Assembly: GCA_027318645.1 (NCBI GenBank)
Contig: DAHVOV010000236.1
Location: forward strand, 1 to 33,865
DNA length: 33,865 nucleotides
Reading direction: 5' to 3'
Source: Candidatus Aminicenantota bacterium
Lineage (GTDB): Bacteria > Acidobacteriota > Aminicenantia > UBA2199
Within the stretch, counting starts at the first letter, position 1. Every line of letters begins with the position of its first letter. Below are positions 2,125 through 14,762 of this stretch, in pieces. The notes below the pieces were generated by a model. It had not been told where the DNA came from. It ran no database searches and saw only the letters and a list, made by a program, of their open reading frames with translations. The translations under genes and the position numbers were made by a program.

Positions 2125-2879
2125 GGCCGCTGCAGCCGCCGCAGCTCGTGCATCAGGATACAGGCGCTGATCCCGACGTTGAGCGAGTCGATGCGCTCCT
2201 CCTGGTCGATGCGCACGCGCGGGAAGCGCTCCAGCAGCCGCGCATCGAGCCCCTGTCCCTCGCCGCCGAGGAGCAGCAGGCAGGGGAACTCCATGCGCTC
2301 CAACGCCAGCGTTCCTCCCCCGGGGCGCGAGCCGGTGGCGTAGACGCGGGCGCCGGCCGCCAGGGCGGCGGCGACCAGGCGGCCGGGATCGCCGAAGACC
2401 TGGAAGGGAACGTCGAGCAGGGCGGTCTGGGCGGCGCGCACGACCTTGTCGTGGTTGGGGCGCGCCCCGTCGCCGGCCAGGGCCAGCGCCGGCACCGCGA
2501 ACGCCGAGGCGCAGCGGAAGGCCGTGCCCAGGTTGCCGGGGTCCTGGACGCCGACGAGCGCGACCGTCAGCCGGCAGCGGGAGAAATCGATCCGCGTCTC
2601 GGGGATGTCCAGGACGGCGAGCAGCGTCGGCGGGCTCTGCATGCCGGCGGCCTTGGCCATGACCTCCGGGCTCACCCGCCACTCCTCCCGCACGTCGGCC
2701 CGCGGCGCCGGCAGCGCCCCCTCGAGATCGGAGCGCACCAGCAGCGTCTCCACCCGCAGGGGGCGGGCGAGGCAGTCGCGCACCAGCTTGTCGCCGGCGA
2801 AGAAGAACCGGTTCTCGCGCTCGGCCAGCAGCCGCTTCAGGCGCGGGTTGGCGCGCGAAACGACGTCAATCCTCGTCAT
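2121..2879 (-). CDS. TrmH/SpoU-family RNA 2'-O-methyltransferase (RlmB-like)
   Basis: 252 residues. An N-terminal L30e-like substrate domain (about 1-90) precedes a SPOUT methyltransferase domain with the three family motifs: motif 1 around GVQDPGNLGTAFR, motif 2 GGEGQGL, and motif 3 around DSLNVGISACILMHEL, where the S-L-N-V segment forms the knot and AdoMet site. Members methylate the 2'-OH of 23S rRNA (for example RlmB at G2251) or tRNA; the exact target cannot be read from sequence. The ATG at 2879 overlaps the preceding radical-SAM gene by 14 nt, and the stop overlaps the queH start, so translation is probably coupled. Confidence 0.88.
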   Translation of the reverse strand: MTRIDVVSRANPRLKRLLAERENRFFFAGDKLVRDCLARPLRVETLLVRSDLEGALPAPRADVREEWRVSPEVMAKAAGMQSPPTLLAVLDIPETRIDFSRCRLTVALVGVQDPGNLGTAFRCASAFAVPALALAGDGARPNHDKVVRAAQTALLDVPFQVFGDPGRLVAAALAAGARVYATGSRPGGGTLALERMEFPCLLLLGGEGQGLDARLLERFPRVRIDQEERIDSLNVGISACILMHELRRLQRP

Positions 2880-5292
2880 GGAACACCACCCCCCGGCGGC
2901 TCAGGCACGAGGTCCATTTCCGCTCCGGGTCCAGCAGCCGGTAGACGCGGGCGAAGCGCTCCTGGCCCTGATGGGCGAAATCCATCCTCAGCTCCACCCC
3001 CGCGGCGGAGAACGAGGCGGCGTCTCCCTGGGCCAGCAGCGCGAGAATGTCCTCCGCAGCCGGCCTGGCGCCGGGGCCGGCCGGCCAGGTGAAGCGGAGA
3101 TCGACGAAGCGCAGCCGCGTGTGGAACGAGGACTCGCCGCGGACGAACTCGGCGCGGGTGAAGGGAAGGTCGGCCTGGGAGCGGTTCAGGGCGGCCAGCA
3201 CCCCGGCCTCGTCGGCAGGGCCGCCGCCGCCCGCCGGCGCGGCCACGGCGACCTCGATCACCTCGTCCTCGCCCTCGGCCCCCACCGGCAGCGGCGGCAG
3301 GGCGGCCATGCGGATGCGCGGGTGGAACCCCTGGCTGAAGCGGAAGAGCAGCCCCGAGCGGCGCAGCAGGCGCTCCAGCATCTGCATCATCGCCAGGTGC
3401 GACAGGAAGCGCAGGTCGCCGCGCTTGGCGTAGTGCAGGCGCAGGCGGCGGTAGGCGACGGGCGGCGCCGCCGCCGGCCCCGCCTCGCCCGCCCAGGCGG
3501 CGCGGGGCGCCGGCGGGGTGCCGAAGGCGCAGCCGCCGCAGGCGGCGCAGTCCCGCCCACCGCAGGCGGGGCTGGGCTCGTCCCGGCGGCTGCGGCGGTA
3601 TTCCTCGGCCAGGTATTCCTTGCGGTAGCTCAGCTCCACGAAGTCCCAGGGCAGCTCCGCCTCCAGGGGCAGCTCGGACAGGAAGTCGGCGCCGCCCAGC
3701 CGCGGCAGCTCCTCCTGCCAGGCGGCGAGGTGGAAATGGGAGTCCCAGGCGCTGAAGGCCTCCCCGCGGCGGTGCATCGCCAGCAGCAGGTCGCCGACGC
3801 GGGCATCGCCGCGCGCCAGGATGGTCTCGATCATGCTCCGCCCCGGCGAGTGGAAGTCCAGGTCGAGGGACTTGTGCCGCCGCAGTCGGCCGCGCAGGAA
3901 GGCGATCTTCTCCTCCAGCTCGGCGACCGGCGCCCGCCCCGCCCATTGCAGCGGCGTGTGCGCCTTGGGGACGAACGAGGAGAAGGAGGCGTGGATGGCG
4001 ACGCGGGCGCGCCGCTGGCGGGCGACGGCCAGGATGCGCTCCAGCAGCAGGACGATGGCCTCGACGTCGGCGGCGGTCTCGCCCGGCAGGCCGATCATGA
4101 AGTACATCTTCAGCTTCTGCCAGCCGTGCGCCCAGGCCAGGTCCAGGGCGCGGAAGATCTCCTCGTCGCTGACGTCCTTGTTGATGGCGCGGCGCAGCCG
4201 CTCGCTGCCCGCCTCGGGGACGATGGTGATGCCCGTCTTGCGGAACAGGGCCAGGGTGGAGAGCAGCTCGGCGCTCAGGGTCGCCGGCCGCAGCGAGGGG
4301 ACGGAAAAGGAGATGTCGGGCTGGACGGCGCCGGGGATGCGCCTCAGCAGCTCCGGCAGGTCGGGGTAATCGCCGGAGCTCAGCGAGGCCAGGGAGAACA
4401 TCTCGTAGCCGGTGCCGCGCAGCGCCCGGCCGATGAAGTCCAGCACGGAACCGGCCTCGCGGACGCGGAAGGGGGCGTAGTAGGACTTGGCCTGGCAGAA
4501 GCGGCAGGCCTGCGGGCAGCCGCGGGCGATCTCCACGTTCAGGCGGTTGAAGACCACGTCGCAGATGGGGACGATCTCCTCCGCCTCGGGGGGGATGCGG
4601 CCTAGGTCGGGGCAGACGCGCTTGCGCACCTTCCGGCCGCCCAGGTCGGGGACCAGGAACGGCCCCTGCCGGCGCAGGGGGTGCAAGGCGGGGGCGTAGA
4701 CCCCGGGGACGCGGTCGAGCTCGCCCAGGACGGCCGCGCGGCCGGACCCCAGGCGGCGCGCCTGCCGCAGCACGGCGACCAGGTCGGGGAAGAGCGCCTC
4801 GCCGTCGCCGAAGGCGAAGAAGTCGATGAAGGCGCGCAGCGGCTCGGGGTTGGCGACGGCGATGCCGCCGGCGCCGACGAGCGGGTCGCCGGCGCCGCGC
4901 TCGGCGGCGTTCAGCTTCAGCCCGGCCAGGTCCAGGGCCAGCAGCACGTTGGTGAAGCTCAGCTCGCTCAGCAGCGAGACGCCCAGCAGGTCGAAGTCGG
5001 CCAGGGGGGTGCGCGTCTCCAGCGAGAACAGGCGCACGCCGTGCTCGCGGAACAGCGGCACGTTCTCCGGCTCGGGCAGGAAGGCCCGCTGGGCGTGGAC
5101 GCCGGGCATGGCGTTGAGCAGGTGGTAGAGGATCTTGATGCCGGCGTGGCTCATGCCGATGGCGTAGGTGTCGGGGAACAGCAGGCAGACGTTGACGTCC
5201 TCGCGGCGGAACTCGCGGCGGCAGGAGTTGATCTCGCCGCCCACGTAGGCCTGGGGGTTCTTCAGGCGCAGGATGAGCTCGGCGGCGGTCAT
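2866..5292 (-). CDS. B12-binding-like/radical SAM protein fused to DUF2344 (TIGR03960 + TIGR03936 type)
   Basis: 808 residues. An N-terminal cobalamin-binding-like fold (about 1-220) is followed by a radical SAM core with the CxxxCxxC cluster motif at Cys259, Cys263 and Cys266 (ARGCPQACRFC). A Cys-rich linker near residues 580-595 (CGGRDCAACGGC) leads to a C-terminal DUF2344 domain (about 615-808). The fusion is widespread in bacteria, often beside ribonuclease G/E, but its reaction is not established to my knowledge. No RNase G gene is present here; it sits between rodA and an RNA methyltransferase, with short overlaps at both ends. An RNA or ribosome modification role would fit the neighbours but is only inference. 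Confidence 0.87.
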   Translation of the reverse strand: MTAAELILRLKNPQAYVGGEINSCRREFRREDVNVCLLFPDTYAIGMSHAGIKILYHLLNAMPGVHAQRAFLPEPENVPLFREHGVRLFSLETRTPLADFDLLGVSLLSELSFTNVLLALDLAGLKLNAAERGAGDPLVGAGGIAVANPEPLRAFIDFFAFGDGEALFPDLVAVLRQARRLGSGRAAVLGELDRVPGVYAPALHPLRRQGPFLVPDLGGRKVRKRVCPDLGRIPPEAEEIVPICDVVFNRLNVEIARGCPQACRFCQAKSYYAPFRVREAGSVLDFIGRALRGTGYEMFSLASLSSGDYPDLPELLRRIPGAVQPDISFSVPSLRPATLSAELLSTLALFRKTGITIVPEAGSERLRRAINKDVSDEEIFRALDLAWAHGWQKLKMYFMIGLPGETAADVEAIVLLLERILAVARQRRARVAIHASFSSFVPKAHTPLQWAGRAPVAELEEKIAFLRGRLRRHKSLDLDFHSPGRSMIETILARGDARVGDLLLAMHRRGEAFSAWDSHFHLAAWQEELPRLGGADFLSELPLEAELPWDFVELSYRKEYLAEEYRRSRRDEPSPACGGRDCAACGGCAFGTPPAPRAAWAGEAGPAAAPPVAYRRLRLHYAKRGDLRFLSHLAMMQMLERLLRRSGLLFRFSQGFHPRIRMAALPPLPVGAEGEDEVIEVAVAAPAGGGGPADEAGVLAALNRSQADLPFTRAEFVRGESSFHTRLRFVDLRFTWPAGPGARPAAEDILALLAQGDAASFSAAGVELRMDFAHQGQERFARVYRLLDPERKWTSCLSRRGVVFHDED

Positions 5293-6362
5293 GTCAGGTA
5301 CTCGTTGATCTTGATGCGGAAGATGACGGCCTCGCCGATGAAGAGCGACAGCAGTGAGGAGCCGCCGTAGGACACGAAGGGCAGGGTGATGCCCAGCACC
5401 GGGAAGAGGCCGATGGCCATCGACACGTTGACCAGGAACTGGAAGAGGATCAGCCCGTTGAACAGGTAGACGAAGTAGAACTCCTCGTCGTTCTGGAAGT
5501 TGAAGCGCAGGTGGCGGTAGAAGAGCACGAAGAAGAGGAAGAAGAGCAGGGAGACGCCCAGGAAGCCGAACTCCTCGCCGATGACCGAGATGATGAAGTC
5601 GGTGTGCCGCGCCGGCAGGAACTGATAGCGCGACTGCGAGCCCTGCAGGTAGCCCTTGCCGGCCAGCCCGCCCGAGCCGATGGCGATGCGCGACTGGATG
5701 ATGTGGTAGCCGCTGGAGTCCTTGTAGCGCACCGGGTCGAGGAAGGAGACGATGCGCTCCTTCTGGTAGGGCCGGAGCAGGCCGTGCCAGGAGACGAAGG
5801 CGCCGCCGGCCAGCAGCAGCGCCAGCGCCACCAGCAGCGCCGGGCGGACCTTCTTCAGCAGCAGCACCAGCGGCACGAAGCCGCAGAGGATGAACGACAC
5901 GCCCATGTCAGGCTGCAGGACGATCAGCGCCACCGGGACGAAGATCAGGGCCAGGGTCCTCAGGAACGCCCGGGCGTCGAGGCTCTCGGCCTGGGCCAGG
6001 ACCTTGGCCAGGCAGACGGCCAGGGGCACCTTGACGAACTCCGAGAACTGCAGGCCGATGCCGCCCAGGCGGAACCAGCTCCGCGTGCGGGCCACGGTCA
6101 CTCCCATGACGATCTGCAGGGCCAGCACCGCCAGCAGAACCAGGTAGGCGGCGAGGGCGTTGCGGAAGACGAACTCGCTCTTCAGCGAGAAGACGGCGAG
6201 GAAGGCCAGCAGCGACACGCCCAGCCAGGCCATCTGCTTCAGGTAGTGCGTCTCGTGCGTGGAGTGGCCGGCGCTGTAGACGAGCAGGATGCCGGCCAGG
6301 GCCAGCAGCAGCAGCATGGCGAAGGCGCCCTTGTCGAAGAATTTAACGTAGTCCTTCTTCAT
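5289..6362 (-). CDS. rodA: Rod-shape peptidoglycan glycosyltransferase RodA (SEDS family)
   Basis: 357 residues, polytopic with about ten membrane helices. It polymerises lipid II into glycan strands in the elongasome together with PBP2. Family signatures are visible: a periplasmic loop with LPARHTDFIISVIGEEFGF and a C-terminal LGITLPFVSYGGSSLL segment. It begins inside the end of the PBP2 gene (20-nt overlap) and its TGA overlaps the ATG of the radical-SAM gene, so it is part of the same coupled message. Length is normal for RodA. Confidence 0.95.
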   Translation of the reverse strand: MKKDYVKFFDKGAFAMLLLLALAGILLVYSAGHSTHETHYLKQMAWLGVSLLAFLAVFSLKSEFVFRNALAAYLVLLAVLALQIVMGVTVARTRSWFRLGGIGLQFSEFVKVPLAVCLAKVLAQAESLDARAFLRTLALIFVPVALIVLQPDMGVSFILCGFVPLVLLLKKVRPALLVALALLLAGGAFVSWHGLLRPYQKERIVSFLDPVRYKDSSGYHIIQSRIAIGSGGLAGKGYLQGSQSRYQFLPARHTDFIISVIGEEFGFLGVSLLFFLFFVLFYRHLRFNFQNDEEFYFVYLFNGLILFQFLVNVSMAIGLFPVLGITLPFVSYGGSSLLSLFIGEAVIFRIKINEYLT

Positions 6363-8166
6363 CGCGGAAGTATCTCCGGTAGACCTGCCCGGCCAGCGGC
6401 GCGGCGATGGACCCGGCGTCGCCGCCGTTCTCCACCAGCACCACCACGGCCAGGCGCGGGTTCTCGCGGGGGGCGAAGGAGACGAACCAGGAGTGGGGCA
6501 TGAAGCGCTTCTCGCGGGTGAGCCGCTGGTACTGCGGGTTCTCCTTGGTGATGATCTGCGACGTCCCCGTCTTGCCGCAGATGTCCAGGCCGTCGACGCG
6601 CGCCGCCCGGCCGGTGCCGCCCTCGTTGACCACGCGGAACAGCCCCTCGATCACGCGCTCGAAGTTCTCCTCGGCGATGGGCACGCGGGTGAAGCGCGGC
6701 GTGAATTCGCGCACCGTCCGCCCCCGCTGCTCGATGCGCTGCAGCAGGTGCGGCTGGGGCATGCGCCCGCGCAGGGCGACGGTGGCGATCAGCTTCAGCA
6801 TCTGCGCCGGGGTCACGTTCAGCTGGCCGTGGCCGATGGCGACGGAGATGGTCTCGCCCGGGAACCAGCGCTGGCCCAGCGCCCGCAGCTTCCAGGCGCT
6901 GTCGGGCACTAGCCCCGTCTTCTCGCTGGGCAGGTCGATGCCGCTGGCCTCGCCCAGCCCGAGCAGCCGGGCGGTGCGGGCGATGGTGTCGATGTCCAGC
7001 CGCCGCCCCAGGTTGTAGAAATAGATATTGCACGAGTTCTGCAGCGCCGAGTAGAGGTTCATCGTGCCGTGGCCGCCCGGGTTCCAGCAGTGGAAGACGC
7101 GGTCGTAGAAGACCTGGCTGCCGGAGCAGAAGACGGTCGCCTCCGGGGCGAGCTGCCCCTCCTGCAGGCCGGTCAGCGCCATGACGATCTTGAACACCGA
7201 GCCGGGCGAGTAGATGCCCTGCAGGAACTTGTTCTGCAGCGGCTTGCGCGGGTCATTGCTGATGGCCAGCCATTCGTCGCGCGACAGCTCGCTTGAGAAG
7301 ACCTCGGGATCGAAGGAGGGCTTGACGACCAGGGCCAGCAGGCCGCCGCTGGCCAGGTCCATGACCCCGACCACGCCGCCCTCCTCGCCCAGCAGGTCCT
7401 CGATGTACCGCTGCAGCTTCATGTCCAGCGTCAGGACGACGGTGTCGCCGATGACCGGGTCGGCCACGCCGCTGACCTGCTGCACCTTCTCGACGCTGTT
7501 GGTGATCACGGTCTGCTGGCCCTTGACCCCGCGCAGGAAGGCCTCGTACTGGCTCTCGATGCCGCTGCGGCCGACGCGGTCGCCCAGGGCGTACGCGGAG
7601 CCGGGGGGCAGGGCGGCCAGCTCGGCCTCGCCGATCTCCGACACGTAGCCCAGGACGTGGGCGGCGCTTTCGGCGAGCGGGAAGGTGCGGCTGGGCTCCA
7701 TGTCGATCTCGAACTCCGGGAACTCGTCCTGGCGGCTCTGGATGAAGATGACCGTCCCCTGGGGCACGTTGCTCTGGATGGGGATGCGGTAGAACGAGGC
7801 GAATTTCTCGTAGCGGGCGACGGTCTCGCGCACCGCGGCGGCGCTCTTGCCGGAGAAGAAGCTCGCCCGCCGCAGCGTCTTCTCCATGTCGGTCACGTTC
7901 TCGCGCACCAGGTACAGGGTGAAGTTGATCTTGTTCTCGGCCATCACCACGCCCGAGCGGTCGACGATCAGGCCGCGCGGCGCCGGCAGGTCGATCCGCC
8001 GCGTGATGTTGCGGATGGCCAGGTCCCAGTAGGTCTGGTGGCGCACCACCTGGATGCTCCAGAAGGCCACGAAGATGACGGTGAACAGCACGACCAGCAG
8101 CACGGTGGCGACGACCGCGGCGCGCTTGACGGCCTCGGGGGTGAGCTTGCGCTTGCTAAGATACAT
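6343..8166 (-). CDS. mrdA: Penicillin-binding protein 2, elongasome transpeptidase
   Basis: 607 residues. One N-terminal membrane helix (about 15-37) is followed by the non-catalytic PBP dimerisation region and the transpeptidase domain. The three catalytic motifs are intact: SVFK with nucleophile Ser323 and Lys326, SCN at Ser378-Asn380, and KTG at Lys532. It cross-links peptidoglycan in the periplasm with RodA under MreBCD control. The start ATG lies inside the end of mreD (11-nt overlap). The stop is TAA, one of several genes here that use TAA as an ordinary stop. Confidence 0.95.
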   Translation of the reverse strand: MYLSKRKLTPEAVKRAAVVATVLLVVLFTVIFVAFWSIQVVRHQTYWDLAIRNITRRIDLPAPRGLIVDRSGVVMAENKINFTLYLVRENVTDMEKTLRRASFFSGKSAAAVRETVARYEKFASFYRIPIQSNVPQGTVIFIQSRQDEFPEFEIDMEPSRTFPLAESAAHVLGYVSEIGEAELAALPPGSAYALGDRVGRSGIESQYEAFLRGVKGQQTVITNSVEKVQQVSGVADPVIGDTVVLTLDMKLQRYIEDLLGEEGGVVGVMDLASGGLLALVVKPSFDPEVFSSELSRDEWLAISNDPRKPLQNKFLQGIYSPGSVFKIVMALTGLQEGQLAPEATVFCSGSQVFYDRVFHCWNPGGHGTMNLYSALQNSCNIYFYNLGRRLDIDTIARTARLLGLGEASGIDLPSEKTGLVPDSAWKLRALGQRWFPGETISVAIGHGQLNVTPAQMLKLIATVALRGRMPQPHLLQRIEQRGRTVREFTPRFTRVPIAEENFERVIEGLFRVVNEGGTGRAARVDGLDICGKTGTSQIITKENPQYQRLTREKRFMPHSWFVSFAPRENPRLAVVVLVENGGDAGSIAAPLAGQVYRRYFRDEEGLR

Positions 8167-8629
8167 CCAGCAGCGCCTTCACCTTCCGGGAGCCGACGAT
8201 GAGCGTCCCGGCCAGGGCGGTGGCCAGGGGCTGGAACACCAGCAGGGAGGCCGTGATGCGGTAGCGGAAGATGAGCACCAGGAACAGGAAGGCCACCAGG
8301 TTCGAGAGGAACAGCGAGACCTGGATGAGCAGGAAGACGAAGATGTTCTTCTTCAGGTCCAGGTAGCGCGCCAGCGAGTTCAGCAGGAAGGCGGCCAGGG
8401 TGCGCGCGAAGGAGAAGACGCCCATCACCCCGCCGGAGACCACGTCGCCGGCGAAGCCGATGAGGGCGGCGCTGAGGACGGACGGCAGGTAGCGGGAGCG
8501 GATGGCGATGAAGAAGACGATCAGGTACAGCAGGTCGACGGAGAAGCGCCACTGGTAATAATAGCGGCAGACGGCGACCTGGCCCACGGCCAGCAGGGCG
8601 AAGAGCACGGCGCGGAAGCGGCTATTCAT
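8156..8629 (-). CDS. mreD: Rod-shape-determining membrane protein MreD
   Basis: 157 residues, almost wholly hydrophobic with about five to six membrane helices, the usual size and composition for MreD. Sequence conservation in this family is low, so the assignment rests on topology together with its place between mreC and mrdA, with overlaps of 8 and 11 nt. Charged residues in helix 3 (AGDVVSGG) match the conserved GLxxD-type segment of MreD. It acts in the inner membrane as part of the elongasome. Confidence 0.9.
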   Translation of the reverse strand: MNSRFRAVLFALLAVGQVAVCRYYYQWRFSVDLLYLIVFFIAIRSRYLPSVLSAALIGFAGDVVSGGVMGVFSFARTLAAFLLNSLARYLDLKKNIFVFLLIQVSLFLSNLVAFLFLVLIFRYRITASLLVFQPLATALAGTLIVGSRKVKALLDVS

Positions 8630-9423
8630 GGACCAGGACCACCAGCCGGTTGATCGGCTTGTCCACGAAGTACGGGCGCACGGTGATCCGCTGGGTCAGG
8701 TAGTCCTGGCCGATGGCGGTCACCCGGCCGACGGGCAGGAAGCTGGGATAGATCAGGTCGGTCCCCGAGGTGATCACGCGGTCGCCCACCCGCACCGGCT
8801 TGTTGGCCAGCAGGTACTCGAAGCGGCACTCCGGGCCGTTGCGCCCCTTGAGCAGACCCTCCAGCATGTTGGACTCGATGGCGGCACCGGTGCCGCCCAC
8901 CGGGCTGGTGAGCAGGCGCACCTGCGCCGAGAACGGCGTCAGCGGCTTGGCGATGCGGCCGACCAGGTCGGCGTCGGTGTTCAGCACCACGTCGTTCTCC
9001 ACCAGCCCGGCGTTCGTCCCCTTGTCGATGGTCAGCTCGGCGTAGGGGAAGTTGATGTCGACGGAGATCACCGCGGCCAGCAGGAAGCGCGGGAACTTGC
9101 CGCGCACGCCGGCCAGCGTGCGCAGGTCGCGCAGCTGCCGGCGCAGGGCGACGTTCTCGACGCGCAGGCCGACGTACTTCTGCTTCAGCTGCTGGTGGCG
9201 GCGGTAGACGCCGCGCAGGAAGACGTAGCGCTGCAGCTCGCTGCCGACGAAGTCGGTGGCCTTGCGGAAGGTGATCTGCAGCGGCATGACCATGTTGGCC
9301 ACGGCCGCCTGCAGCAGCGACTGCTGGTTCTTCAGCATGATCTGCGACGAGATCAGGATCAGGTCGACGAACAGGATCAGGACCAGGACGGCCGACTTCC
9401 GCTCCGGGCTGAGCCCGCCGGGA

Positions 9424-9434
<11 letters not shown>
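8622..9434 (-). CDS. mreC: Rod-shape-determining protein MreC
   Basis: 270 residues: a short cytoplasmic tail, one membrane helix (about 14-32), a coiled-coil stretch (about 70-105), then the two beta-barrel periplasmic domains. The conserved segment NAGLVENDVVLNTDADLVGR and the later GDRVITSG segment are typical. MreC links MreB to PBP2/RodA in the periplasm. The ATG at 9434 lies 11 nt inside mreB. Confidence 0.95.
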
Positions 9435-10455
<1,021 letters not shown>

Positions 10456-10493
10456 GTCATGCTCCTTCGGATGATTCCCGCCGCGGCCGGCCT

Positions 10494-11654
10494 TTATTCC
10501 TCAAAGATGGTCACCTGCCTTTTCAGGATCGCCTCCAGCCCGGAGGGGGCCAGGGCGCGGAAGACGATCTCCTTCACGCCGATGCTCCTGTAGGAGATGG
10601 TGTGGATGAAGCGTCCCTCGCCGTCGAGCTCGACGCGGGTGCCGTCGATGAACAGCTGGGCGTGGGGATCGGCGCTGCCCTTGATGAGCACCATCTCGCC
10701 GCTGACCGAGAGCGAGTCGACCTCGATGCGCGGCGGCTGGGGCAGCAGCCCCTTCTTCAGCAGCGAGCTGCTGATGGTGATCACGCCCATGCGCGCCGGC
10801 GCCGACTCGACCCGCCGCGCGGCGTCGTAGGCGGCCACCTCCCAGTGCAGCGCGCTGTACTCGATGAAGGGCATGATGTCCAGGGTGACGGCGTTCTCGC
10901 TGACCACCTTGCTCAGCAGCAGATTGTCGCGCAGCGCCGACGGGTAGAGCTTGAGGATGTACTGGCGCGCTCCCTGCACGTTCTTCCACTTGAACTGCAC
11001 GATGGTGTCGCTGGGCTCGCTGAGCGCCAGGGTCTCGGCCTCGGGCGAGATGAACGGCGGCGGCGGGAACAGCGGCAGCGGGGCCGGGCGGCCGCCGCCG
11101 CGGCTGTCCAGGTACTGCAGCGGCCCGACGTGGAAGAGCGTCCCGTTCAGGTCGAAGTCCAGCGCCCCGGCGAAGTTCCAGACCTCGAGCGCGCCGCTGC
11201 CCAGGCGCAGGCGGCCGGCGCCGGAGAGCCGGAAGATGTTGCCGCCCCGGAGGAGGGAGATCTCGACGGGGCGGCTGCCCGCCTGGCGCTCCCAGTAGTA
11301 TTCGCCCTTCTCCAGCAGCAGCTCGCGGGTCTGCGGCGTGTAGACCAGGACGCTGCCCGGCAGGGCCGTGAACAGGAAGCCCTCGAAGAAGAACTCCCAG
11401 GCGGTCTGGGCGTCCGAGTGCAGCCGGGTCTCGGAGACGAAGTTCAGCGTGCGGATATCGGCCGGCTGCGTCTCCTCGCTGTCCAGCCAGAGGTTGCCCC
11501 TTTCCGAGATGCCGATGACCTGGAAGCCCGTCACGCCGGTCCCAGGGCTGTCGGTCCGCGTCGCCGGCATCGCCCCGGGCCGCTGCAGCAGCAGGAAGCC
11601 GGCGGCGGCGGCGAGAAGGGCGGCGGCCAGGAAGAACACCCGGGACTTGCTCAT
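10494..11654 (-). CDS. Secreted FecR-like / Ig-like multidomain protein leading the mre operon
   Basis: 386 residues. The N-terminus has a Sec-type signal or membrane anchor (MSKSRVFFL, then an Ala/Leu core to about residue 24) with no lipobox cysteine. Residues roughly 45-190 show the alternating beta pattern of FecR/iron-transport-sensor-like domains. Residues about 205-300 look like a fibronectin-III-like module, and about 315-386 like a bacterial Ig-like domain ending KRQVTIFEE. I do not know a named homologue. Its position immediately upstream of mreB, with a shared leaderless promoter, suggests an envelope or surface function linked to elongation; that is inference. No enzymatic motif is seen. 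Confidence 0.75.
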   Translation of the reverse strand: MSKSRVFFLAAALLAAAAGFLLLQRPGAMPATRTDSPGTGVTGFQVIGISERGNLWLDSEETQPADIRTLNFVSETRLHSDAQTAWEFFFEGFLFTALPGSVLVYTPQTRELLLEKGEYYWERQAGSRPVEISLLRGGNIFRLSGAGRLRLGSGALEVWNFAGALDFDLNGTLFHVGPLQYLDSRGGGRPAPLPLFPPPPFISPEAETLALSEPSDTIVQFKWKNVQGARQYILKLYPSALRDNLLLSKVVSENAVTLDIMPFIEYSALHWEVAAYDAARRVESAPARMGVITISSSLLKKGLLPQPPRIEVDSLSVSGEMVLIKGSADPHAQLFIDGTRVELDGEGRFIHTISYRSIGVKEIVFRALAPSGLEAILKRQVTIFEE

Positions 11655-11660
11655 GGCCCT

Positions 11661-11689
11661 ATGGTAGCAAAATCGCCCGCTAAAATCAA
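11661..11689 (-). promoter_or_regulatory. Leaderless promoter of the FecR-like/mre operon
   Basis: Minus strand: TTGATT (11684-11689), 17-bp spacer ending in an extended TGC, TACCAT (11661-11666), then only 6 nt to the ATG at 11654. No Shine-Dalgarno is possible, so a leaderless mRNA is predicted. This site would drive the nine-gene run down to queH. Confidence 0.65.
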
Positions 11690-13274: not shown

Positions 13275-13757
13275 TTAGCCGTACAGTTCCTTGATGCGCC
13301 GGATCACCTGCGAGGTCGAGCGCACCTTGGCGCCGCCGGCGATGGCCAGGCGGCCGCCGTAGCCGAGCACCACCTCGCGCTCGGGGATGGAGTCGGGGGT
13401 GTAGTCGGCGCCCTTGCAGTGGACGTCGGGGGTGAGGGCGCGCAGCACGCCGGTCACCGTGGGCGCGGAGAAGAGGGTCACGTAGTCGACGCAGGCCAGG
13501 GCGGCGATGATGCGCGCGCGGCCCTCCTCGTCGATGAGGGCGCGGCCGGCGCCCTTGAGGCCGCGCAGCGAGGCGTCGGAGTTCAGCGCCACCACCAGCA
13601 CGTCGCCCAGCGCCTTGGCCCCCTGCAGGTAGCGGACGTGGCCGACGTGGATGAGGTCGAAGCCGCCGTTGGCCAGCACGACGGTGTGGCCGGCGCTCCT
13701 TTCGGCGGCGACGGCCGCGGCCAGGGGCTCCAGGGACAGGCGCTTAGCGCAGGGCAT
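13275..13757 (-). CDS. rfaE2: D-glycero-beta-D-manno-heptose 1-phosphate adenylyltransferase
   Basis: 160 residues, the stand-alone adenylyltransferase half of HldE. It transfers AMP to heptose-1-phosphate, giving ADP-heptose. The nucleotidyltransferase motif GGFDLIHVGHVRYL (HxGH) and the C-terminal RSTSQVIRRI segment are intact. The ATG at 13757 overlaps the end of rfaE1 by 14 nt and gives a normal family length. A longer reading in this frame lies over rfaE1 and is a shadow. Kinase and adenylyltransferase are separate genes here rather than the fused HldE of enterobacteria. Confidence 0.93.
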   Translation of the reverse strand: MPCAKRLSLEPLAAAVAAERSAGHTVVLANGGFDLIHVGHVRYLQGAKALGDVLVVALNSDASLRGLKGAGRALIDEEGRARIIAALACVDYVTLFSAPTVTGVLRALTPDVHCKGADYTPDSIPEREVVLGYGGRLAIAGGAKVRSTSQVIRRIKELYG

Positions 13758-14727
13758 CCTGGAGCTCGCGGCGGCGCACCGGGTAGGCGCCCTCGTGCAT
13801 GACCACGATGCCGCCGGCGACGTTGGCCAGCCGCGCCGCCTCGAGCAGCGGGGCGCCGCCGGCCAGCCCCAGGGCGGCCACGGCCAGCACGGTGTCGCCG
13901 GCGCCGGTGACGTCGACGATCTGCGCGGTGCCGTGGATGTCGAGCGCCGCCGGCCGGCGGCCGCGCTCGAAGACCAGCATGCCGCGATGGCCGCGCTTGA
14001 GGATGACGCCGCGAGCGCCCAGCCGCTCCAGCAGCTCGCCGCCGGCGGCCAGGAAGTCGTCGTCATCGGCGAAGCGCCTTCCCGGGAACAGCTCCTTGAC
14101 CTCGGGCTCGTTGGGGGTGGCCACGACGGCGCCGGGGAACTCCAGCAGGCGGCGGCGCGAATCCACGACGCTCAGCGCGCCGGGGAACTCGCGGCGCAGC
14201 GACTGGAAGAGCGCCGGGGCCACGGCCTGGCCCAGGTAGTCGGAGACCACCAGCGCGTCGCTCGACTCCAGGGCGGCGCGCAGCGCCCGCGCCAGGCGCC
14301 GCCGCGCCCGCTCCTCGACCGGGGCGCGGGCCAGGGTGTCGATGCGCAGGATCTGCTGCTTGCGGGTGTTGTCGCCGCCGGCCAGGATGCGGCTCTTCAG
14401 GGGGGTGGCGTAGCCGTCGGCCGCCACCAGGTGGTCCGCGGCGATGCCCTGCTCGCGCAGCAGCCCGCGCAGCACCTCGCCCGAGGCGTCCCGGCCCACG
14501 AAGCCCACCGGCAGCGGCGTCGCGCCCAGGGTGCGCAGGTTCATCACCACGTTGCCGGCGCCGCCCAGCCGGTACTCGTGGCGCTCGAGCTCGGTGACCA
14601 GCACCGGCGCCTCGCGCGAGACGCGGCCGGCCGACGTGAAGACGTATTGGTCGAGGATCAGGTCGCCCCAAACGGCCACCCGGCGGAGGCGGAAGCGGGA
14701 GACGATGGAAGCCAGCGAGGTGCGCAT
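13744..14727 (-). CDS. rfaE1: D-glycero-beta-D-manno-heptose-7-phosphate kinase
   Basis: 327 residues, PfkB/ribokinase family, the kinase half of HldE. It phosphorylates heptose-7-phosphate at C1. The N-terminal substrate loop (LGGAGNVVMNLRTLG) and the C-terminal catalytic/anion-hole motif (DVTGAGDTVLAVAALGLAGG) are intact, with the DTV-preceding GAGD carrying the base. The ATG at 14727 has no ribosome site and lies 6 nt after a strong -10, so a leaderless message is expected. First gene of a four-gene overlapping operon (rfaE1, rfaE2, GT9, ICMT-like). GmhA, GmhB and HldD are not in the window. Confidence 0.93.
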   Translation of the reverse strand: MRTSLASIVSRFRLRRVAVWGDLILDQYVFTSAGRVSREAPVLVTELERHEYRLGGAGNVVMNLRTLGATPLPVGFVGRDASGEVLRGLLREQGIAADHLVAADGYATPLKSRILAGGDNTRKQQILRIDTLARAPVEERARRRLARALRAALESSDALVVSDYLGQAVAPALFQSLRREFPGALSVVDSRRRLLEFPGAVVATPNEPEVKELFPGRRFADDDDFLAAGGELLERLGARGVILKRGHRGMLVFERGRRPAALDIHGTAQIVDVTGAGDTVLAVAALGLAGGAPLLEAARLANVAGGIVVMHEGAYPVRRRELQDALR

Positions 14728-14733
14728 TGGGAA

Positions 14734-14762
14734 ATGGTAGCAAATCGCCGGAAGGCAGTCAA
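14734..14762 (-). promoter_or_regulatory. Leaderless promoter of the rfaE operon
   Basis: Minus strand: TTGACT (14757-14762), 17-bp spacer with extended TGC, TACCAT (14734-14739), then 6 nt to the ATG at 14727. It is nearly the same from GCGATTT through TGCTACCAT as the promoter before the FecR-like gene at 11654. Confidence 0.7.

Follow-up and report, generated by a model that had tools for sequence, protein, structure and literature searches.

We have analyzed a stretch of 33,865 nucleotides of DNA (the window in what follows) from a member of the Aminicenantia (Acidobacteriota), in which a gene that we designate X is found together with the genes coding for the elongasome. The gene order is X-mreB-mreC-mreD-mrdA-rodA, on a single strand and with X in the first place (Table 1). 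Between X and mreB there is an intergenic gap of 38 nt that contains the Shine-Dalgarno sequence of the latter, and, beginning with mreC, the start of each gene lies within the end of the preceding one. The position of X at the head of this run had been pointed out in a preliminary description of the window and was borne out here, since the ORF is real and each of the downstream genes was identified with Pfam. The radical SAM gene that overlaps the end of rodA is possibly the tail of the same operon and transcript. If being encoded in the mre/mrd operon is taken as the criterion for an elongasome gene, X meets it by gene order, the transcript itself being inferred.

Table 1. Features of the X-mreB locus, with positions in the window.
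Feature	Position	Strand	Evidence
-35-like element of the X promoter (TTGATT), 17 nt upstream of the -10	11684..11689	-	TTG fixed in 30/30 family loci
Extended -10 TGCTACCAT, 6 nt before the ATG of X	11661..11669	-	TGnTAnnAT-N6-start in 30/30 family loci
X	10494..11654	-	ATG start, ORF of 386 aa
Shine-Dalgarno AAGGAG of mreB	10462..10467	-	Read from the sequence
mreB	9424..10455	-	Pfam MreB_Mbl 1.6e-145
mreC	8622..9434	-	Pfam MreC 2e-25
mreD	8156..8629	-	Pfam MreD 2.9e-06
mrdA (PBP2)	6343..8166	-	Pfam Transpeptidase 1.3e-66 plus PBP_dimer
rodA	5289..6362	-	Pfam FTSW_RODA_SPOVE 1e-79
Radical SAM/DUF2344 protein, its gene overlapping the rodA end	2866..5292	-	Pfam and coordinates

The region preceding X was compared over 30 family loci aligned, free of gaps, on the start codon of X. 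A promoter-like element is found before X in every one of them, and the conservation of this element is demonstrated by the alignment. As TGnTAnnAT is located exactly 6 nt before the start, transcription would be expected to begin at the start codon of X, i.e., judging from the sequence, the transcript is apparently leaderless. A scan for consensus promoters between positions 10300 and 12400 listed none anywhere, the promoter of X included. The latter has 8 of the 12 consensus bases plus the TG, and its -35-like element is below the threshold of the scan. Given that it was not listed under such strict conditions, the claim of a promoter rests on conservation. The same scan detected no promoter-like and no terminator-like site in the gap between X and mreB; the terminator-like stems that it listed lie immediately ahead of the X promoter in one case and within X in the other. 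The idea that X and the mre genes share a promoter, also present in the preliminary description, is supported as far as no separate mreB promoter was seen, and a single transcript is inferred. A strong promoter of mreB's own, without co-expression, would have refuted that description. The pattern TGnTAnnAT-N6-start appears two times in the window against 0.02 expected, both at gene starts. The second case (14725-14742, minus strand, with ATG as start) is located directly before a gene of the pfkB kinase family (14727..13744), which suggests that the gene run upstream of X has a leaderless promoter of its own, distinct from that of X. Leaderless starts in Acidobacteria are already known and are not a novelty of this locus: they are reported in three of three Acidobacteria, with a mean of 13.3% of the genes (PMC3160421).

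The product of X gave no match to any Pfam family at E<=0.1 or to any NCBIfam family, and a sequence-profile search of solved structures returned a single meaningless match (E 0.45). We obtained an AlphaFold2 model built on 30 relatives (mean pLDDT 85.8), in which residues 2-23 form an N-terminal membrane helix, followed by a disordered linker (residues 25-41) and, beyond it, by nearly all beta structure. Three domains could be delimited in the model: a FecR-type domain (residues ~69-242), a Fn3 domain (~196-297) and an Ig/Glucodextran_B-like domain (~300-386). The first of them aligned with the PDB structures 4m0h (Z 12.6, rmsd 2.8, 124 residues aligned), 4m0n (Z 12.4) and 6ovk, i.e., PupR (Z 11.7), so that X satisfies the periplasmic-type beta fold criterion of the FecR family at the level of the domain. 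These matches come from a second alignment, Foldseek alone having listed only generic Ig/Fn3 chains for the X model. With Pfam at E<=1, 11 of 34 relatives matched Glucodextran_B and two matched FecR. The three proteins of the phylum type that were scanned are all above the Pfam cut-off for FecR, whereas X falls below Pfam reporting. One of the phylum type (L133, 485 aa) was also modeled, over an alignment of 15 sequences and with a mean pLDDT of 86.9. In its model a short cytosolic stretch leads to a membrane helix that continues as a helical hairpin (residues 20-123), and the same FecR, Fn3 and Ig domains follow, the FecR domain being closer to PupR (6ovk, Z 16.0, rmsd 2.2, 130 residues aligned). 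The FecR-like plus Fn3/Ig-like architecture, initially recognized from the sequence alone, is therefore in agreement with structure prediction. Fn3 and Ig domains are common and the fold is uninformative about the ligand of X.

In the relatives of the phylum type about 20 residues precede the membrane helix, and a juxtamembrane cytosolic motif, [DEAS]W..[VIF], was found by pattern in 48 out of 60 of them (52 out of 60 when four recognized by eye are added). X had been described as secreted. Since most relatives outside the class show a clear N-terminal cytosolic segment and, after it, a membrane helix, X is better read as a single-pass, membrane-anchored envelope protein, its periplasmic location remaining an inference. 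Neither the W motif nor the helical hairpin is present in the relatives at the class level, X included, so a single signaling route through the motif cannot hold for all of them. Two long homologous ORFs (L135, 1163 aa, and L143, 805 aa) were considered as fusions and discarded, the true protein starting late, at the segment with the W motif.

Regarding the conservation of the locus, X was found in 31 of the 34 genomes of the family that were searched and, in all 31 loci with flanking sequence, it is located before mreB and on the same strand. The genes upstream of X (ICMT and GT9) are found in 15/15 loci of the same genus versus 0/15 loci of other genera. One of the genomes (L072, G029) has a second, partial copy of X comprising the N-terminal ~110 residues, on a separate contig and interrupted by the contig end. 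At the class level, 30 out of 99 genomes matched X (21 of family f1, four of f2 and five of f5). The homologue precedes mreB in the five f5 loci and in three of the four f2 loci, the stretch of the fourth showing no mreB. In the families f3, f4 and f6-f12 (33 of the 40 class loci fetched) there was no X-like gene before mreB.

To extend the comparison to the phylum we used a profile of 34 relatives, which at E<=1e-5 found a match in 142 of 395 genomes of Acidobacteriota; in 18 out of 20 distant loci fetched mreB was found downstream and on the same strand. A wider profile (A3) matched 276 of the 395 genomes at E<=1e-10, falling into a strong and a weak group, the weak matches being probably other FecR/Fn3 proteins. 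The many genomes without a strong match indicate that the elongasome can work without X. For the phylum count only the 141 strong genomes from outside the class with listed coordinates were considered (G433, without a mreB match, and G122 and G145, which were left unplaced, are all outside the count). X is located up to 2.6 kb upstream of mreB and on the same strand in 106 of these 141 genomes, representing 43 of 45 families. The distance between both genes was below 450 nt in 60 genomes, 450-1800 nt in 39 and 1.8-2.6 kb in seven. Four more genomes not included in the 141 (G155, G160, G177 and G192) also carry X at ~1-1.4 kb before mreB. The adjacency, whose restriction to a single genome would have refuted the preliminary description, is neither unique to the window nor due to chance, and recurs across the phylum. 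These distribution figures cover Acidobacteriota only, and stretches ending early at contig ends (e.g., L097, L098, L104 and L193) limit the view upstream. In the remaining 35 genomes X was not near mreB on the assembly: it was on another contig in 25, elsewhere on the same contig in five and far off on the same strand in another five. Family f30 accounts for 27 of them, i.e., this family has retained X, yet detached from mreB in most genomes. The neighbors of X in one f30 locus (L141) were PurK-like, TerC, cation efflux and lactate racemase genes, which gave no functional clue. X is a divergent protein (median 77% different), and we observe that its distances track those of MreB (Spearman 0.677, n 69, 0/999 permutations), as expected under shared descent.

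When X and mreB are separated, the space is occupied by another gene. All the separated loci among the 141 (46 loci of 21 families: L125-L128, L140, L142 and L146-L185) have an ORF with a GGDEF domain between X and mreB, on the same strand. The GGDEF motif is intact in 45 of these 46 ORFs and the RxxD I-site is present in 44 (46 and 45, respectively, of 47 when L136 is added), and Pfam detected GGDEF in the six that were scanned and GAF in five of them. Based on the intact catalytic motif the intervening gene can usually be considered a putative diguanylate cyclase, the synthesis of c-di-GMP being inferred. In L136, where X and mreB are far apart, X is still followed by a GGDEF gene. A shorter GGDEF protein is encoded at the same place in the three f2 loci with mreB (L073-L075) and in four family loci (L070/G031, L067/G021, L030/G027 and L039/G016), overlapping in L030 the stop codon of X. 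In the other 27 of the 31 family loci the gene is absent from this place, and no GGDEF gene was found nearby in the 12 loci of the adjacent type that were fetched. Among genomes without a strong X, 8/20 have a GGDEF ORF directly or nearly directly before mreB (L186, L189-L192, L198, L203 and, weakly, L187). In the genus of the window there is no cyclase between X and mreB. We looked for a cyclase moved elsewhere in the genome of the window (G000) with the GGDEF protein of L030 as query, and among its eight matches there was no sign of an orthologue; the matches listed span the GGDEF part only, the best one with 34% over residues 147-319 of 320. From these distributions, and without a tree, we infer an ancestral order X-diguanylate cyclase-mreBCD-mrdA-rodA, with repeated loss of either of the first two genes.

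The linkage of X to mreB is strong, and X is a conserved and apparently undescribed gene of the elongasome operon; no description of it or of its operon was found among the open-licence papers listed in our searches. The reading that we favor, with no more than middling confidence, is that X serves the elongasome as an envelope sensor or scaffold and was originally paired with the production of c-di-GMP. The N-terminal helix would hold the protein in the inner membrane and its FecR-type, Fn3 and Ig-like domains would face the periplasm, probably in contact with the cell wall or with the periplasmic regions of MreC and PBP2; this contact with the elongasome is inferred. If X is transcribed together with MreBCD, PBP2 and RodA, its amount would follow that of the wall elongation machine. 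In the putative ancestral form, which persists across the phylum, a putative diguanylate cyclase with GGDEF domain (usually GAF-GGDEF) is encoded between X and mreB, and X would most likely pass information on the envelope through the membrane, to the cyclase and/or to MreB. In the genus of the window, with the cyclase gone from this place, X would act directly with the elongasome. The GGDEF gene in between is an observation, whereas the sensing, the glycan binding considered in the preliminary description and any connection of X to control by c-di-GMP are inferred. A more detailed version, which we put forward only tentatively, is that Acidobacteriota have a signaling unit dedicated to linking envelope and elongasome, in which the FecR-type protein, anchored at the elongasome, senses the wall and, through the W motif, switches the co-encoded GAF-GGDEF cyclase, c-di-GMP produced at MreB filaments coupling elongation to attachment or matrix production; lineages such as the genus of the window would have dropped the cyclase and wired X straight to the elongasome.

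It is also possible, if on the unlikely side, that X is a purely structural cofactor of the elongasome that clamps MreBCD and PBP2 by means of its periplasmic beta domains and carries no signal, with the cyclase gene as a mere passenger. RodZ, which belongs to the elongation machine, crosses the membrane once and carries a beta domain in the periplasm. The plan of X, with one membrane pass, few residues in the cytosol and its beta domains in the periplasm, is RodZ-like, the analogy being one of way of working only. X besides outlives the cyclase, as seen in most family loci and in the 60 genomes where less than 450 nt leave no room for a GGDEF gene. Against this, the best matches of its FecR domain are known sensor domains, the GGDEF neighbor is kept even away from mreB in L136, and a separate RodZ exists already in the genome of the window, on another contig (L145:456-1205, with HTH_25 plus RodZ_C). 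X itself lacks HTH_25, and with that protein present in the genome a replacement of RodZ by X was ruled out.

We consider rather improbable that X is a growth-coupled surface protein, similar to adhesins, that shares the operon only for its level of expression without taking part in the elongasome or in its control. Its Fn3/Ig tandems do look like those of adhesin structures in the PDB, some relatives are weakly similar (far below the cut-off) to the leptospiral adhesin Lsa33 in NCBIfam, and its divergence would fit a surface protein. The place before mreB has been kept in nearly all the families while other upstream genes change, and the membrane anchor together with the cytosolic W motif is found in the large majority of the phylum relatives, both against such a role and in line with the sensor or scaffold that we favor. 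Finally, a FecR-family anti-sigma regulator of cell-surface signaling can hardly be upheld: the FecR domain does match the folds of PupR and BDI_1681, but no sigma-factor gene was detected among the 10 window proteins scanned with Pfam (the neighbors are GT9, PEMT/ICMT, mreB, etc.), the cytosolic N-terminus is too short for an anti-sigma domain in the class (a few residues) as well as in the phylum (~20), and with no adjoining ECF sigma-factor gene and a helix starting at residue 2 neither of these two marks of an anti-sigma protein is met by X.

MreB, MreC, MreD, PBP2, RodA and RodZ are regarded as the invariable set of elongasome proteins. An extra gene at the head of the operon, kept throughout the phylum together with a c-di-GMP gene, would represent a regulatory layer of rod growth unlike that of model bacteria, and one that can be tested in cultured acidobacteria. 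It suggests an as yet untested coupling of cell growth to the sensing of the envelope, and proteins that are recognizable by their FecR domain only gain a concrete function to look for.

Several known systems share parts of this arrangement. The FecR/PupR regulators (6ovk, 4m0h, 4m0n) have in common with X the fold of the periplasmic domain and the N-terminal membrane anchor, but X lacks the anti-sigma domain and the sigma-factor neighbor, has additional Fn3 and Ig domains and is linked to mreB. In the YfiBNR system, a periplasmic partner controls the diguanylate cyclase YfiN, which is connected with envelope stress and with the synthesis of the wall; YfiN is reported to act on division under the control of YfiR (PMC4992967), whereas in Acidobacteriota the gene for the GAF-GGDEF protein is accompanied by mreBCD and by one for a FecR-type protein. 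In the Rhizobiales, RgsP and RgsM, a protein with c-di-GMP domains and its wall-binding partner, govern peptidoglycan growth. RgsP is different in being, as reported, a 7TMR-PAS-GGDEF-EAL receptor with phosphodiesterase activity that is involved in polar growth and has no FecR domain (PMC6107284). By analogy, the unit formed by X may be likened to a FecR-type sensing joined with a coupling of c-di-GMP and wall of the YfiN or RgsP kind, which is an inference.

Escherichia coli offers a parallel that is instructive. Its csrD, a GGDEF-family gene, is located directly upstream of mreB, and the five features annotated in the csrD-mreBCD stretch include no X-like gene. CsrD is a membrane protein with GGDEF and EAL domains whose motifs are degenerate, and it acts on RNA decay; the acidobacterial GGDEF proteins are unlike it in having the motif intact.
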